Positions 27,517-35,812 of a DNA stretch of 64,000 bases are shown one piece after another. The notes beneath the pieces are model-generated. The model saw only the letters and a list, made by a program, of their open reading frames with translations, was not told the origin of the DNA and ran no database searches. The translations under genes were made by a program, and so were the position numbers. The stretch lies in the NCBI GenBank assembly GCA_018673925.1, contig JABHBL010000102.1, positions 62,001-126,000 on the forward strand, written 5' to 3'. Each line of letters begins with the position of its first letter. Positions within the stretch are counted from its first letter, which is position 1. Source of the DNA: Fidelibacterota bacterium (GTDB lineage: Bacteria > Fidelibacterota > UBA8477 > JABMPR01).

Positions 27517-27693
27517 TTACGGTAATTTAACCACAGAAGATTCCCAGGTCGTCTTCTGTGTTTGGGAGTTGTCTCCCTTGACATCTGTTGGTACAAAATT
27601 TATCAGCAACATAAATGTCAACAGCACCAGCACAGTCAATAGGACTTGAACTGATGCATTCTTCCTTTGTCTTTCCCCACGAAATGATTTCAT
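27517..27693 (-). CDS. 58-residue single-pass membrane peptide (not in ORF track)
   Basis: Found by reading the minus strand after the TatT-like gene. ATG at 27693 overlaps that gene's stop as ATGA. The product has a basic N-terminus (MKSFRGERQRKNAS), one hydrophobic helix of about 20 residues (VLLTVLVLLTFMLLINFV) and a short polar tail ending VVKLP. The coupling overlap and clean topology support a real gene below the 60-residue limit of the track. Function unknown; no homologue recognised. Confidence 0.6.
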   Translation of the reverse strand: MKSFRGERQRKNASVQVLLTVLVLLTFMLLINFVPTDVKGDNSQTQKTTWESSVVKLP

Positions 27694-28544
27694 AGATTAA
27701 ACCAGTTTTCCTTTTCTGCTTTGATCATCAATCTTTCAGCCACAGTCTTTTCATAGACATTTTCAGGATAATATGGCAACTCTGGATCTGGTGTAGTCGT
27801 TACTACCTTTGTCAAAAGGCTATAAAAGAGATTTTTATCTTGAGCCAGAGGACAATAATGTTGAGCCATAAGCGTATAGTTACCCAAATAGTCTGGGGAA
27901 ACTCGGATCGCTTCATCAAAGGCTTCACGTATGCCCGTTGTATCGTTCTCTGTTTGTGGATCACGTCCTAACAAAGCACCCTTATACCGATAGTAAGCTC
28001 CATAGTAAAAGACGGAATCCAGATCATGTATATGTTCCAGCGTTGTCCAAATGAGTTCCCGTTGTCCCATGCGAATCAGATTACTTTTCGTAGCCAGCCA
28101 TTGTCCATAATTGGCCATTCCCCAGTAAAGCGCTTCCAGGGAAGTTTGGTCAAGACCACGAACAGCCATACTCTCATCCCCCGTCGAAAACAGCAGGTTT
28201 CGGTATTCACTATTTTGCTTGAGAACAGTTTGACTGACGCCATAACCCAGAAGGAATAGACTATCCTGCACCTGTGGGGATTGGGTCAAATATTGACCGC
28301 AAAAATAATAGGCTCTTGAGAGTTTCGCCCAGAGTTGAATCGATGTTGAATCCAATTCTGCAAGCTGTTGATAAACGACCAGAGCGGCCTGGGCATTTGC
28401 CTTGTCAGCTCTCAGCGACCAGAGGCTATCTGCATTTTCAATATTGATTTCTAATGGATTTGTTGAAACAGGCGTGACAGGTATATCTGTTGATGTACAA
28501 GATATAAGAATGGTTGATAAAAATATAAAAACAAATTGTCGCAA
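27690..28544 (-). CDS. TatT-like helical-repeat lipoprotein (TRAP T-component family)
   Basis: 284 residues. Signal segment with lipobox (LISC, Cys16). The body is all-helical and TPR-like: ALVVYQQLAELDSTSIQLWAKLSRAYYF, EALYWGMANYGQWLATKSN, YRYKGALLGRDP, IREAFDEAIRVSPDYLGN. This fits the TatT-type TRAP T-component family, periplasmic TPR proteins linked to TRAP transporters in Treponema, but no TRAP permease is nearby. The only start in frame is a TTG at 28544, preceded by GGAAGG. It is coupled by ATGA to the 58-residue membrane peptide. Confidence 0.72.
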   Translation of the reverse strand: MRQFVFIFLSTILISCTSTDIPVTPVSTNPLEINIENADSLWSLRADKANAQAALVVYQQLAELDSTSIQLWAKLSRAYYFCGQYLTQSPQVQDSLFLLGYGVSQTVLKQNSEYRNLLFSTGDESMAVRGLDQTSLEALYWGMANYGQWLATKSNLIRMGQRELIWTTLEHIHDLDSVFYYGAYYRYKGALLGRDPQTENDTTGIREAFDEAIRVSPDYLGNYTLMAQHYCPLAQDKNLFYSLLTKVVTTTPDPELPYYPENVYEKTVAERLMIKAEKENWFNL

Positions 28545-28703: not shown

Positions 28704-30953
28704 CTATTGTTCAAGTATCAGTTCGACCAGAATAACCAGGTCCCGGATGTCAATCAAGGTATCCTGATTAGTATCAGCCAGTTGTGCCAGGTCAGCCTCC
28801 AGCTCAAGGTTTGATATGATTGATTCTAGAAGAAAGACAGCATCGGATACATTGATTTCACCGTCTTGAGTAACGTCCCCCAGCATGAAGCCTGAGCCCC
28901 ATCCCAAAACAGCAATGTTGTCAACTTGAAATCCATCACCTTCATAATAAGTATCACTTATCAATTCAAATGCCAACATAAGAGAGGATGACTGGCTAAA
29001 ATTCTCCAGAGAGACTTGTTCTGCTATCCATGCCTGCGTCCCATGATACCCAGGTTCTCCAAGAGGTTGAACCGAACTACCATTTCCAAGTTCTGTAAAC
29101 TGGCCACTAAGCGCTACCCAGTTATCGCCTGCATCATCTGATGCGAGTACCTGACAAAAATCCCAGTTGAACTCAATATCCCAACTGGCATCAAATCGAA
29201 GTATTGGATTACTATACCCGCGTAAATCAAGAGGTACATCCAGAAAAACTGTGGAAACAACATCTGGTTGGTAGTCACCCAAAGGAGAATCTGTCAAATA
29301 TTGCTCCCCAGCAGGGCCAAGCTCCAACCCCCACGACCCTGAACTCCACATTTGGGAGCCAGTTTCGAAATCGTCAAAAAATATCGTATCCGGTACACCA
29401 ACTATCCATTTCAATGTATCAACTTGAGTTTCATACCCGGACATTTCCATGCTAAGTACAAGCTGAGCCACTTCGCCATATTGAGAATTAATCTCGAAGC
29501 TCAAACCTTCGGTTCCATAGTCATGATAGGCCTGTGATGCCAAACCTGAGACATCCAGGGAACTAAGTGATGGGGTGATGCTGCTATCTGGCGAGTGTAA
29601 ATATAGGATAGCTTCTGTGTTCTCTGAACCAAGGCCCTTGTTCATGACGCCAAGCTCACAGCCCACAATTTCACCAGATTCCAAGGGACCATCTGAGCTA
29701 AACTCAAAACTTTCTACTTCTATCCAACTCCCCGCACAACCGGCAAGATGAATATTCATATCGATATTGCCCTCTGCCATTTCAAATATCAATTCTGTAG
29801 GTGGCCAAAATGCTCCATCCGATCCAGCGCCGACTTCTGGTGTAAAATTTATTATTCCTAATTCACCATACATATAATCAACGGCATCTCCATTCACCGT
29901 ATATCCTACGGTCTCAGTTCCCGTTCCATACAGATAATCATTTTCTTCAACAAGATCTGGACCCATTTGGGCATAGATATCGTTATCGGGCGTGGGTAGC
30001 TCAACCGATTCATCATAACCGAAGGGTTTTATGAGTAAATTTCCGTAGCTGTGATAGTTGAATATGGTCTTAAAATCGTGGGCTAGCACAAAAGTACTAA
30101 TCACTTGTGTTTCTGGTTCAGAGAAGGCAGCAGTTCCTCGGTATGTGGCATCGCATGGATCAGGGCTAGAGCCCTCATCGTTAAACCCCCACTGAAAGCC
30201 CCAATTTCTATTCAGGTCGACTCCTGGTGAACTGGTGCATCCTGGATGTCGATTCTTGCGGTGCATTCCACCACCACCTGGATCGGTGAGTTGGTTGTAG
30301 ACATATCCATCTGGATTAATTACAGGGACAAACCAAATTTCTCTCTCATTTACCAGATAAGTCATGGTTGGATCCTGGTTGTATTCCTCCGCCAGAGACC
30401 AGGCAAAATGCATCAAAGTCATCATGGCTGCAGGTTCACGCGCGTGGATGAGAGAAGTGTAAAGAACCTGGGGATCACCATCTGGTAAACCCTGGGCATC
30501 AGATATCTTAAAAGCCCAAATCTCCCTTCCCTCATAGCTCTGACCAATGCTCATTTTGGCAGAAACAATTTCTGGAAAACCTGCATGCAGCGAATCCATA
30601 CTGTTCACGATCTCATCAAAGGTTAAATAACCACCCATACTCCCATAACCCAATTCTCGGGATGCACCCTGACTTAGGCGGGATGCATAATAGGCACTCA
30701 GATCAAGAATCAATTCTTCTGTGGCGAATCCCAGACTTTCTACATCCAGCTTTTCGTACTGACTAACAATAGCATCAACATAGACACCGGGTCTAACATC
30801 GAACCCTTCAGGGTCTATTCCCAGTACTTGCAATTCAGATATGATCTCATTGGTATTATCGGACCAGATTCTGATTTTATCGTAGGTTGACTGAGCCATC
30901 CCCAGTTGGAATAAAAATAGGAAGACAAGCAGAGAAGTGAATTTTTTGATCAT
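28704..30953 (-). CDS. Secreted M14 zinc carboxypeptidase with dockerin-like tail
   Basis: 749 residues, signal peptide ending LGMAQ. Peptidase M14 domain about 110-420. Zinc ligands are in HAREPAAM (H and E) and FNYHSYGN (H); DLNRNW is the substrate-binding segment; the catalytic Glu is in NFTPEVG. The middle is Ig-like and jellyroll (about 425-680). The C-terminal ~60 residues hold two dockerin/EF-hand-like repeats (GDVTQDGEINVSDAV, ADTNQDTLIDIRDLV). No T9SS sorting tail. It probably digests extracellular or periplasmic peptides, and may be co-transcribed with the adjacent M1 peptidase gene (19 bp gap). Confidence 0.88.
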   Translation of the reverse strand: MIKKFTSLLVFLFLFQLGMAQSTYDKIRIWSDNTNEIISELQVLGIDPEGFDVRPGVYVDAIVSQYEKLDVESLGFATEELILDLSAYYASRLSQGASRELGYGSMGGYLTFDEIVNSMDSLHAGFPEIVSAKMSIGQSYEGREIWAFKISDAQGLPDGDPQVLYTSLIHAREPAAMMTLMHFAWSLAEEYNQDPTMTYLVNEREIWFVPVINPDGYVYNQLTDPGGGGMHRKNRHPGCTSSPGVDLNRNWGFQWGFNDEGSSPDPCDATYRGTAAFSEPETQVISTFVLAHDFKTIFNYHSYGNLLIKPFGYDESVELPTPDNDIYAQMGPDLVEENDYLYGTGTETVGYTVNGDAVDYMYGELGIINFTPEVGAGSDGAFWPPTELIFEMAEGNIDMNIHLAGCAGSWIEVESFEFSSDGPLESGEIVGCELGVMNKGLGSENTEAILYLHSPDSSITPSLSSLDVSGLASQAYHDYGTEGLSFEINSQYGEVAQLVLSMEMSGYETQVDTLKWIVGVPDTIFFDDFETGSQMWSSGSWGLELGPAGEQYLTDSPLGDYQPDVVSTVFLDVPLDLRGYSNPILRFDASWDIEFNWDFCQVLASDDAGDNWVALSGQFTELGNGSSVQPLGEPGYHGTQAWIAEQVSLENFSQSSSLMLAFELISDTYYEGDGFQVDNIAVLGWGSGFMLGDVTQDGEINVSDAVFLLESIISNLELEADLAQLADTNQDTLIDIRDLVILVELILEQ

Positions 30954-30972: not shown

Positions 30973-33900
30973 TTAATTAGAAATTGTAAAAAGCCATTGA
31001 TTCGAGTCGATTGCATTGACCCATTCAGAATCTTCATACCTTAAAATACTTAGCTCGAATTTCATGTGAAAGGGACGAAAGAGTGTCGAAATCCAATTTG
31101 TGCGGTCCCAAGAAGGCTTATAATTGACTGCAAATCCCAGGTCACTCACACCGGTCCAGTTTTGAGCATCGTCAGATATTTGTCCAACATCGAAGAAAAA
31201 CCCAAGATCTAACGTGTGCGGAATGTGGGGTATGGATCGAAATGTCAGATCCAGGTTGTTGGACCAAATATAATTCAGGGGCTGATCCAGAGAATCAGCA
31301 TACCCCCTCATACGTCCACCGCCTTTTAAATAATAATGGGACCCAATCAGTTCAGCATCTTTAATCCTATAAAGACTCGAAGCGCCCCTATCCAAATAGA
31401 TAGATCGTAAATCCTGAGATGCAACTCGGCTCTTTATCAGATTGGGGGTTGCGCTTGAATTGGCCAGGATATTTGAGCGATTATTCAAGTGAAAATACTT
31501 AAACTGCTTATCCCAACTGCTCATCAGGCTTAGCTGGCTAAAATCCTTTGCATAGCTCCCTAAACTGGCTGGAGACATATCGAACCTCAGGCTAAGGCCA
31601 TAGTTTCCGGAGAACAAAATTTCCTGTAATTCATATTGAACAGCCAGCCGAGTGAATTCAATTTGGTCATTTTGAGCAACTGCGGCATGTTTTGCATCTG
31701 TCTTTTCAATTTTTAAGGTCAGGAAGTGAAGTGGGTTCCTCCAATATTTCCTGGCCCAATTCATCTCATAGGCCAGAGAGCTAAATACCATTGAGCGCCA
31801 GATTTTTGCTGTGCCGGACCAGGTGGACTTGAATGGAGGACCGACTTGAAGGTTGCTGAAACTTAAGGAGACATCAGGATTACCCGATTCCAGGTTATGG
31901 TCGAGAGTGAGCTGTGCAAAATTCCCAGTATTTCGATACACACGCTTGATATTTAAACCCAAACCCACTCCTGCAGAATCACTGTAGCCAAAGCTTGGTT
32001 TCCAGAGATAGAGATTCCTATCATCAGGGTAGGCATCCCAACCTTTATAATCATAACGAAAAGTACGTTTGCGTTGACTATCATTATTGCGTCGGTCGTG
32101 GTCAAAGAAAGTATTTTCCGCATCTAGATAGACGCGAACCGGACGAAATTTGGATTCTACCATAATTGTACCTGATGAACGGTGGCGAAACTCTTTTAGT
32201 GGAGCAGAGACTGTTTCACCTGTTTCGCTATAAATTGTTGCTGTGATGGGTACAAACATTCCACCCTTATTATCAACATTTACTTTGGTCGTAAAATGAT
32301 TCTGCTCACGGGCTTCAACAGACCAATCAACCAATTTATAGTCCACATAATGGGTGGTGCGGAGCCATTGATCAAAGAACCAATCCAATTCTTCTCCACA
32401 ACCATCCTCCATTGCTTTGATAAATCGGTCTTCATTTACATGCTTTAGAGCCCAGCGAGAGAAGTAAAGTCTCATGCCGGCTAAAAAACGTTCTTCTCCC
32501 AGATAATTTTTCAGCATGGCAAGCATGATAGAACCTTTATCATACGAGTTACTACTGTAAGACCCATAGTAATCATAATCAAAACTCGCGGTAGCCATGG
32601 GCTCATTTGCAGTAGAAAGAACATACCGAAGTGCTGATTTTAGCTCAGCCTCCTCATACATTTGCCGATGTAAATGATCTGATTCAAATTGTGTGATATA
32701 TTCTCGGGAAAGTGCGTATCCATTATTAGGATAGTGATGCTCTATATACCATCTAGTTTGAAACGTGGTGAAGCCCTCGTCAAGCCAGGGATCATCTAAT
32801 TCATCATTCCCAAAAATTCCGTAGAACCAATTGTGACCCACTTCATGGACGGCTAATCCTTCACTACTAGTGTAATCCAACACAATCATGGGGTATTCCA
32901 TACCACCCGTTCCCAGGGATTTTGCGAGCGTCATCTGTGGCCAGGTATACATTCCAAATTTTCCGGACAACCACTCAAGAGATCTCTCTCCCCACCTAAC
33001 CATATCTTTCGTCCATGATTCGCCAACTTCAGTGGTAAATACGGCATGTACATCAATCCCATTCCATTGTCCATGCTCATAAACAAAATCTGGTGAGCAT
33101 ATCCATGCAAAGTCATGTACATTTTCAGCCTGAAAGCTCACTTGACGCCTTGCAGTGCTATCCAGATCAGCCAGGTAAGTATCTCTTCCCTCTTTAAACT
33201 CCTCGACCCAATCCTCCCATGCTTGTGAGGTATCAACTCTCACAGAATCCCAACCAGGGTCACCATCAATAACAATGCCTGTAGCGGCCACAATTTGAGA
33301 TTCAGGAAGGTCAAGATTCACCGTATATTTTCCAAACTCACCATAGAACTCACCCCAGTCACCAAAGGGATCGTCGTGCCACCCATTCTCATCAAATACA
33401 ACAAATTTTGGATACCATTGGGTGAAGTCAAATTGGTTCTCTTCCCACCCACCGCGACCGATAAGTGGATGAATTATGGATAGCCAGTCCAGAGTGAATA
33501 GGAGTGTGTCACCAGGAAAAAGCTGCTCATTGAGTGTTATTTCTAAAATAGTGTCATCTCGAATATCAAAGGCAAGGTCTATGGAATCGCTGACCATTTT
33601 TTGAATGCTGATACCAGTCCAATCCTTATCATCATTAAAGGATTGACCGTACTCACCCCACACTTCTTCCGCGATGGTGCCCTCATTGAAGGCGTTGGGG
33701 TAGAGATGCATGAGGATTTGATCGAGGGTATCAGGAGAGTGATTCACATAGAGCAGATCTGAGGTTGCTTCTAAGGTTTTCTGCTCTGAGTCAAAATATA
33801 CATCCATATTATACTCGACATATTGCTGCCAGTACTCACCGAAGAGCGGCATGGTAACAATTGTAAATAACAGAATAAGCTGTATGGATTTGCGTCTCAT
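30973..33900 (-). CDS. M1 metallopeptidase fused to an Omp85-like C-terminal barrel
   Basis: 975 residues with a signal peptide (LILLFTIVTMPLFG). Gluzincin M1 core about 25-600: GTGGMEYPM substrate motif and HEVGHNWFYG with the third ligand 18 residues on in WLDEGFTTF. After about residue 625 the sequence becomes beta-barrel-like. It has a GGGRMRGY segment similar to the conserved (V/L)RG(Y/F) loop of Omp85/BamA barrels, then TLDLGFFFDVGQ, ending WLFTISN. This suggests an outer-membrane-anchored peptidase displayed on one side of the membrane. The fusion is seen; the barrel assignment and side of display are inferred. It lacks a T9SS tail. Confidence 0.85.
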   Translation of the reverse strand: MRRKSIQLILLFTIVTMPLFGEYWQQYVEYNMDVYFDSEQKTLEATSDLLYVNHSPDTLDQILMHLYPNAFNEGTIAEEVWGEYGQSFNDDKDWTGISIQKMVSDSIDLAFDIRDDTILEITLNEQLFPGDTLLFTLDWLSIIHPLIGRGGWEENQFDFTQWYPKFVVFDENGWHDDPFGDWGEFYGEFGKYTVNLDLPESQIVAATGIVIDGDPGWDSVRVDTSQAWEDWVEEFKEGRDTYLADLDSTARRQVSFQAENVHDFAWICSPDFVYEHGQWNGIDVHAVFTTEVGESWTKDMVRWGERSLEWLSGKFGMYTWPQMTLAKSLGTGGMEYPMIVLDYTSSEGLAVHEVGHNWFYGIFGNDELDDPWLDEGFTTFQTRWYIEHHYPNNGYALSREYITQFESDHLHRQMYEEAELKSALRYVLSTANEPMATASFDYDYYGSYSSNSYDKGSIMLAMLKNYLGEERFLAGMRLYFSRWALKHVNEDRFIKAMEDGCGEELDWFFDQWLRTTHYVDYKLVDWSVEAREQNHFTTKVNVDNKGGMFVPITATIYSETGETVSAPLKEFRHRSSGTIMVESKFRPVRVYLDAENTFFDHDRRNNDSQRKRTFRYDYKGWDAYPDDRNLYLWKPSFGYSDSAGVGLGLNIKRVYRNTGNFAQLTLDHNLESGNPDVSLSFSNLQVGPPFKSTWSGTAKIWRSMVFSSLAYEMNWARKYWRNPLHFLTLKIEKTDAKHAAVAQNDQIEFTRLAVQYELQEILFSGNYGLSLRFDMSPASLGSYAKDFSQLSLMSSWDKQFKYFHLNNRSNILANSSATPNLIKSRVASQDLRSIYLDRGASSLYRIKDAELIGSHYYLKGGGRMRGYADSLDQPLNYIWSNNLDLTFRSIPHIPHTLDLGFFFDVGQISDDAQNWTGVSDLGFAVNYKPSWDRTNWISTLFRPFHMKFELSILRYEDSEWVNAIDSNQWLFTISN

Positions 33901-34042: not shown

Positions 34043-35812
34043 TTACTCAACTAACTTGATGTGAAGTTCTTTGAGTTGTTGAGTATCAACCAGAGAGGGA
34101 GCCTCATCCATCAAGGAAGAAGCCGAGGTCGTCTTGGGAAAAGCGATGACGTCACGGATATTCTCTGTACCAGCCAGTAGCATAATCAGGCGATCAAACC
34201 CAAAGGCAATCCCGCCATGAGGTGGTGCACCGTACTTGAAGGCTTTGAGGAGAAATCCAAATCTAGCTTGAGCTTCTGCTTCATCCATACCAATGAGCTC
34301 GAACATGCGGCTTTGCATTTCGCCGGTGTGAATCCTGATAGATCCGCCAGCTACTTCATAACCATTGATCACCAGATCATAAGCTTGAGCCCTCACCTCG
34401 CCTGGGGCTGTCTGCATTAATTCAACATCTTCGGGATTGGGAGATGTGAAGGGATGATGCATGGCGATATAGCGTTTGCTATCCTCATCCCAGTCCAATA
34501 AGGGGAAATCCAACACGAAGAGCGGTTTGATAACCCCGGCTGGGATTAGATTTTCACGTTTCGCCAACTCTATACGCAGTGCACCCAGAGACTGGAGTGT
34601 TTTGGCCTGGGTATCAGACACAAAAAACATGATATCATTATGTTCTAAACCAAGGTCATTGATCACTTTTGCCTGGAGTTCTTCCGGGAAAAATTTGCTG
34701 ATGCCAGCACTGAATGCGGTCTGATCCATTTTCACAAATGCCAGACCTTTTAAACCATAATAAGTGCGTAGCCATTCGGTTAGACCGTCAGTAGCTTTAC
34801 GTGAATATTTATCAGCAGCATTCTTCAAAACCAATGCTTTAACCCGTCCACCTGCGGCCAGATTGTCTTTGAAAACACCAAACTCCGTTTTTTCGGCATA
34901 ATCGGCGAACTCCACCAGAGGTAGGTCAAAGCGGGTATCCGGCTTGTCACTGCCGTACATTTCCATGGCATCTTTGTATTTCATGGTGGGAAATGTTTCA
35001 GGCAATTCATAATCAAGAATATCTTTAAAAACTCCTCGTGCGAGCCTGGTTGCTATACCGAGGACATCATCCTGGTCAACAAAGGACATTTCAATATCTA
35101 TCTGCGTAAATTCTGGCTGACGATCAGCTCGTAAATCTTCATCTCTGAAACACTTTACGATTTGGAAATATTTATCGAATCCTGAAATCATAAGCAATTG
35201 TTTATAAGTCTGTGGAGATTGAGGAAGGGCATAAAACTTACCCTTGTGGATTCGACTCGGAACGAGGTAATCCCTGGCGCCTTCAGGAGTAGATTTCATA
35301 AGCACAGGGGTTTCAAACTCCATAAAACCTTCAGCGTTTAATCTGCTGCGAGCGCTCTGATAGGTTTTGGATCTAATGGTCATTAATTTTTGCAGCTCAG
35401 CTGTACGTAATTCAAGATAGCGGTATTCAAGACGGAGATCTTCGCTACCACTTTCACGGTCTGAGACCAGAAATGGTAGGGGTTGTGCCTCATTCAAAAC
35501 TTCAAGTTCTGTTGCCACAACTTCAATGCTGCCAGTTGGCATATTGGGATTCACATTTCCATCAGGGCGGAGTTGGACGGTTCCTCGAACTGCAACTACA
35601 TCTTCCATACCCAGTCGTTTGGCCTCAGCGGCAATGTCTCCATCCAAATCTGGATTAAAGGTTACCTGGGTTTTGCCATAACGATCACGAAGATCCAGAA
35701 AAATCACACCACCATGATCTCTATTTTTGGCTATCCATCCATTGAGGATGACTTCTTCGTTCACGTTTTCAGCTGTAAGTTGACCACAGGTTGTTGTTCG
35801 TTTCAGTCGCAT
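34043..35812 (-). CDS. aspS: Aspartyl-tRNA synthetase
   Basis: Class II synthetase charging tRNA-Asp, 589 residues, the usual bacterial length with the GAD insertion. N-terminal OB anticodon domain (LNGWIAKNRDHGGVIFLDLRDR); motif 2 FRDEDLRADRQPEFTQID; HHPFTSP; motif 3 GIAFGFDRLIMLLAG. It cannot be decided by eye whether it also charges tRNA-Asn; no gatCAB genes are in the window. It is flanked by about 110-140 bp noncoding stretches on both sides, so it is likely monocistronic. Confidence 0.97.
   Translation of the reverse strand: MRLKRTTTCGQLTAENVNEEVILNGWIAKNRDHGGVIFLDLRDRYGKTQVTFNPDLDGDIAAEAKRLGMEDVVAVRGTVQLRPDGNVNPNMPTGSIEVVATELEVLNEAQPLPFLVSDRESGSEDLRLEYRYLELRTAELQKLMTIRSKTYQSARSRLNAEGFMEFETPVLMKSTPEGARDYLVPSRIHKGKFYALPQSPQTYKQLLMISGFDKYFQIVKCFRDEDLRADRQPEFTQIDIEMSFVDQDDVLGIATRLARGVFKDILDYELPETFPTMKYKDAMEMYGSDKPDTRFDLPLVEFADYAEKTEFGVFKDNLAAGGRVKALVLKNAADKYSRKATDGLTEWLRTYYGLKGLAFVKMDQTAFSAGISKFFPEELQAKVINDLGLEHNDIMFFVSDTQAKTLQSLGALRIELAKRENLIPAGVIKPLFVLDFPLLDWDEDSKRYIAMHHPFTSPNPEDVELMQTAPGEVRAQAYDLVINGYEVAGGSIRIHTGEMQSRMFELIGMDEAEAQARFGFLLKAFKYGAPPHGGIAFGFDRLIMLLAGTENIRDVIAFPKTTSASSLMDEAPSLVDTQQLKELHIKLVE

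Follow-up and report, generated by a model that had tools for sequence, protein, structure and literature searches.

A predicted M1 aminopeptidase carrying its own Omp85-type barrel in a marine "Candidatus Neomarinimicrobiota" genome

To our knowledge, Omp85 proteins are the universal insertion and translocation barrels of outer membranes, and almost all of those that have been studied depend on POTRA domains. In 2014, Heinz and Lithgow divided Omp85 proteins into ten subfamilies, which comprise POTRA, patatin, WD40, "Metallo" (PF00149), lipoprotein, and bare-barrel forms but no form with an M1 domain; POTRA domains are usual in Omp85 proteins, but subfamilies such as noNterm lack them (PMC4104836). 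In PlpD, a type Vd protein and the most thoroughly studied fusion of an enzyme with an Omp85 barrel, the enzyme domain stays in the periplasm (PMC11116518). The Omp85 lid lock was defined by Maier et al. in 2015 as a (V/I)RG(Y/F) motif at the tip of loop L6 and an (F/G)xDxG motif on strand 13, joined through an Arg-Asp salt bridge, with FxDxG tied to the kidney-shaped barrel of TamA and BamA and GxDxG tied to the wider barrel of FhaC (PMC4490367).

The window analyzed here (the whole 64,000-nucleotide stretch of DNA) comes from a metagenome-assembled genome of a marine bacterium of "Candidatus Neomarinimicrobiota," and all features described below lie on the minus strand. An intact open reading frame (ORF) of 975 amino acids with an ATG start (positions 30973 to 33900) was predicted to encode a signal peptide, an M1 zinc aminopeptidase, and an Omp85-type 16-stranded barrel, based on the ORF itself, AlphaFold2 models, and orthologues of approximately 975 to 1060 amino acids. 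The full-length AlphaFold2 model, built with 47 aligned sequences (pLDDT 88.3, pTM 0.84), contained a helix at residues 2 to 21, M1 domains I, II, and III, a linker, and sixteen strands across residues 629 to 974. The helix overlaps a predicted Sec signal peptide without a lipobox cysteine (residues 1 to 21, positions 33838 to 33900), which was read from the sequence as MRRKSIQLILLFTIVTMPLFG. Scans for promoters and terminators returned signals at chance level.

Domain I, a β saddle (residues ~23 to 290, with approximate boundaries; positions 33031 to 33834), was assigned from its mostly β structure in the model and a Foldseek M1 match of approximately 625 columns. Catalytic domain II (residues ~291 to 515, positions 32356 to 33030) was assigned from a match to Peptidase_M1 (PF01433; residues 344 to 512, E = 4.8e-22, single-sequence Pfam search) and from residues M334, E335, Y336, H352, E353, H356, E375, and Y453, which were invariant among 47 homologues. 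The original prediction had named a complete gluzincin core, and this was confirmed: GGMEY occupies residues 332 to 336, the zinc-binding HEVGH occupies residues 352 to 356 (positions 32833 to 32847), and E375, 18 residues on, completes the M1 HExxH-x18-E zinc site, with Y453 also in domain II. The exopeptidase motif G-x-MEN takes the form GGMEY, in which the glutamate (E335) is kept and tyrosine stands for asparagine. A sub-branch of relatives (L211, L213, and L215 to L219) keeps HExxH-E and carries alanine, serine, or threonine at the position of this glutamate, hinting at a changed specificity in those sequences.

Domain III (residues ~520 to 595, positions 32116 to 32343) was modeled as a β sandwich of six strands with no helix, and homologues that lack a barrel (L022 to L025 and L058) end near its end. 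A POTRA domain hidden in residues 520 to 595 was considered and rejected, since this all-β domain leads directly to the barrel in the models; neither a POTRA domain nor the helical M1 domain IV was found between domain III and the barrel in either model. Both models also placed a linker at residues 596 to 628 (positions 32017 to 32115), between domain III and barrel strand 1. Searched with Foldseek, the full-length model matched IRAP (E = 1e-24) and ERAP1 (E = 1e-23). Because only M1 enzymes were among the matches listed, a separate model and search were made for the barrel.

Modeled alone (residues 598 to 975), the C-terminal part gave the identical 16 strands (pLDDT 86.9, pTM 0.83) over residues 629 to 974 (positions 30979 to 32016). 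A barrel after the M1 core had been proposed originally, with a soluble β sandwich as the opposing outcome; the outcome favored the barrel, with 16 strands in both models, and the best 50 PDB chains in the barrel-only Foldseek search were all TamA or BamA (top match 4c00, E = 1.6e-9, TM-score 0.50). The TM-scores were moderate (approximately 0.5, with rmsd of 7 to 10 Å), as for a divergent barrel of the Omp85 type. The proposed kinship also held in profile comparisons (hhalign), in which the barrel family matched TamA-like Omp85 barrels of the same phylum at 94% probability (E = 1e-7). A BamA-only profile comparison was weak (5 to 12%, versus 92 to 94% for the TamA-like profile), and the positive control, TamA-like versus BamA, gave 100%. 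TonB-type and FadL-type barrels were rejected at profile probabilities under 1%, both controls giving 0.2%. The Bacteroidota subset alone gave no direct Omp85 signal in hhalign and matched the other M1-Omp85 barrels at 97 to 98%. Hydrophobic alternation was no stronger in the barrel strands than in the M1 strands and was thus nondiscriminating.

Database models were less informative for this region. The C-terminal 378 residues had no Pfam or NCBIfam match in a single-sequence scan, the Omp85 model PF01103 left the window protein unmatched and was touched only by relatives (best L026, 22.4 bits versus a cutoff of 24), and a profile search of the PDB that took the alignment of the barrels as its query returned no match. 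These silent searches would be expected if the C terminus were a soluble β-rich domain or a non-Omp85 barrel in which the RGY and FxDxG motifs are coincidental, but two high-confidence models with Omp85-only structural matches, together with the conservation across phyla of the motifs at L6 and strand 13, largely refute that reading, which we regard as highly improbable.

Both halves of the lid lock were located where Omp85 proteins carry them. Loop L6 (residues 815 to 876, positions 31273 to 31458) is a 62-residue loop with short helices between strands 11 and 12 in both models, and it contains GGGRMRGY (residues 860 to 867, positions 31300 to 31323), which the original prediction had likened to the Omp85 RGY/RGF loop. 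Within it, MRGY (residues 864 to 867, including R865) has methionine for the valine or isoleucine of the published L6 signature (PMC4490367). The LGFFFDVGQ segment noted at the outset proved to hold the second signature, FFDVG (residues 902 to 906, positions 31183 to 31197, including D904), on strand 13 (residues 897 to 909 in the model), in the FxDxG form of TamA and BamA and not the GxDxG form of FhaC (PMC4490367). When the C-terminal 378 residues were shuffled 20,000 times, the pattern [VILM]RG[YFW] followed by FxDxG arose in 8 cases. Both motifs recur at homologous positions across at least three phyla, and the lid-lock arginine and aspartate were both present in 29 of 46 aligned barrels.

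The positions of these elements bear on the side of the membrane on which the enzyme would lie. In the model, with 16 strands and L6 between strands 11 and 12, the M1 domain and the C terminus are on the same side, opposite L6. Known Omp85 proteins have the periplasm on that side. This placement and the periplasmic location of the PlpD enzyme favor a periplasmic M1 domain; the variability of loop lengths by side fits the assigned sidedness only loosely, leaning in the expected direction. Our favored reading (probability approximately 0.62) is therefore that the protein is a periplasmic M1 aminopeptidase kept at the outer membrane by an Omp85-family barrel of its own, for which we infer membrane insertion, side, and activity. 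The protein would be exported by Sec, and its C-terminal 16-stranded barrel would be inserted in the outer membrane, so that the M1 enzyme would hang right under the barrel in the position taken by POTRA domains in other Omp85 proteins. There it could trim N-terminal amino acids off peptides that reach or cross the outer membrane.

Display of the M1 domain at the cell surface, with the barrel itself as the exit route in the manner initially suggested for type Vd proteins, was weighed against this placement and is considered unlikely. An autotransporter barrel holds the M28 aminopeptidase AaaA on the outside of the cell (PMC3426542), PlpD and FplA are classed as autotransporters in reviews of type Vd (PMC6555100), and the linker at residues 596 to 628 would be long enough for threading through a barrel. 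Against these points, later work on PlpD assigns the enzyme domain to the periplasm (PMC11116518), the FxDxG form on strand 13 marks the kidney-shaped barrel type instead of the wider FhaC barrel (PMC4490367), and the 62-residue L6 would probably fill the lumen.

Genes near the M1-Omp85 gene were examined for functional context. A gene 19 nucleotides downstream (positions 28704 to 30953) was annotated from Pfam and synteny as encoding an M14 zinc carboxypeptidase that also carries an InhA-like MAM domain and a weak dockerin-like repeat, and it is followed by a gene for a TAtT (TRAP T-component) family protein (positions 27690 to 28544; PF16811, E = 4.1e-13; also supported by synteny). Upstream, across a 142-nucleotide gap, lies a gene for aspartyl-tRNA synthetase (aspS; positions 34043 to 35812; Pfam and synteny). 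Most members of the genus share the arrangement aspS, M1-Omp85, M14, TAtT, and that of the last three genes reaches the level of the taxonomic order; the M14 neighbor is missing in two close relatives (L007 and L018) and outside the order. Adjacent aminopeptidase and carboxypeptidase genes suggest peptide use, as gene context and not as proof, and in this genus the M14 enzyme could work on the opposite end of the peptides trimmed by the tethered M1 domain. The dockerin-like C-terminal repeat of the M14 protein is possibly a sorting or docking tag, and the M14 gene is duplicated in L002.

One scan of a genome collection and a search of 60 relatives yielded approximately 100 loci of the family. 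Full-length homologues of approximately 975 to 1110 amino acids were found in Neomarinimicrobiota, KSB1, Calditrichota, Kryptonia, and many Bacteroidota. The part of the protein beyond the catalytic domain was bimodal in length, with 442 to 533 residues in complete barrel forms and 60 to 132 residues in barrel-less forms. The latter included Gemmatimonadota homologues, which end directly after domain III, and two Bacteroidota homologues. Three Hermodarchaeota homologues (L059, L060, and L063) and one from Fraserbacteria (L052) have a C-terminal hydrophobic helix in place of the barrel, as if the anchor had been swapped; the Hermodarchaeota helix was counted in favor of an anchoring role. Mapped on a tree quickly built from the M1 region, presence of the barrel required 3 changes (versus 12.2 in shuffles), which fits one gain with later losses or a few gains; trees of the family came from quick searches and contain some long branches.

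Catalytic residues and lid lock were lost in different branches. The main Bacteroidota branch keeps all catalytic residues and has lost the lid lock. A Neomarinimicrobiota branch, first met as L195 and found in 23 of 149 genomes by a search that also catches some catalytic relatives, includes members from which both HExxH and the third ligand of the zinc are gone, and all 10 of the distinct sequences covering the barrel keep MRGY and FxDxG. The relatives with a dead peptidase were L195, L198 to L203, L206, and L208 to L210, of which L195 and L198 are one gene. With the motif columns left out of tree building, loss of catalysis required 4 changes. These opposite losses suggest that selection acts in part separately on catalysis and on the barrel.

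The retention of motifs where catalysis is gone could also point to an assembly or translocation factor, in which the barrel would insert or translocate proteins as an Omp85 machine, and client polypeptides would be bound or trimmed by the M1 domain instead of POTRA domains. The window protein has both members of the lid-lock pair, as do the ten catalytically dead relatives; the loss of the lid lock in the fully catalytic Bacteroidota branch, the lack of a POTRA domain, and the fact that the same genome encodes a distinct BamA-like protein as well as further Omp85 proteins count against such a function, which appears quite improbable. For the tethered periplasmic aminopeptidase, a point against a pure anchor is that the catalytically dead branch keeps its lid lock, which anchoring leaves unexplained; the barrel may be more than an anchor. 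A bolder and rather doubtful proposal is that M1-Omp85 proteins form an unrecognized Omp85 subfamily whose barrel would be a working protein-handling machine, with a peptidase fold replacing the POTRA domains. Some lineages would retain catalysis, others would use the dead fold as a scaffold that binds clients, and in Bacteroidota no more than a plain anchor would be left.

Searches of the open-access literature yielded no account of an M1-Omp85 protein or of an M1 domain joined to an outer-membrane barrel, although prior database annotation is possible. The original view that the family was not known as described stood in part: the combination was not found in that literature and is not among the ten Omp85 subfamilies (PMC4104836), and enzyme-on-barrel precedents exist. 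Its view of an own barrel as an unusual anchor for an aminopeptidase must likewise be softened, as PlpD and AaaA make the arrangement less unprecedented. M1-Omp85 is a large, widespread, and apparently undescribed family, not a single oddity. It shows how an enzyme that trims peptides could be stationed at the outer membrane, and it may explain many proteins that are likely annotated merely as M1 family metallopeptidases. Its natural variants lacking catalysis or the lid lock provide a direct route to finding which part of an Omp85 barrel serves what.

Other Omp85 fusions were also encountered. A second zinc-peptidase fusion, Peptidase_MA_2 with HExxH followed by a PD40 propeller, was found in L188 (same genome), L189, and L194; PF01103 matches the C terminus of L188 in a Pfam scan, and L189 and L194 were found via PF01103 matches in a genome search. 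The WD40-Omp85 subfamily may therefore contain an overlooked peptidase domain. Three proteins from the same genus were PlpD-like, with patatin, POTRA, and Omp85 domains identified by Pfam in L190 and an N-terminal patatin-like motif as in L190, plus Omp85 matches, in L191 and L193.

Compared with known systems, the M1-Omp85 protein shares domains I to III and the catalytic machinery with the soluble or single-helix M1 aminopeptidases ERAP, IRAP, PepN, F3, and ColAP, and differs in having a barrel in place of helical domain IV and GGMEY versus G-x-MEN. TamA and BamA, the best structural matches, share its 16 strands, the L6 RGY, and the strand-13 FxDxG lid lock, but they carry POTRA domains without an enzyme, and their sequence identity to the present barrel in structural alignments is only ~10%. 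The "Metallo" and WD40 subfamilies likewise join an Omp85 barrel to a non-POTRA N-terminal domain (PMC4104836), which is PF00149 or a β propeller instead of M1. The type Vd proteins PlpD and FplA also place an N-terminal enzyme before a C-terminal 16-strand Omp85 barrel, but with a patatin phospholipase and one POTRA domain; membership in type Vd was rejected because M1 replaces patatin and the POTRA domain is absent. AaaA of Pseudomonas aeruginosa resembles the protein proposed here in being an aminopeptidase that a C-terminal barrel of its own keeps at the outer membrane (PMC3426542), but it combines M28 with an autotransporter barrel, was shown at the cell surface, and is unrelated to M1-Omp85 in both halves.
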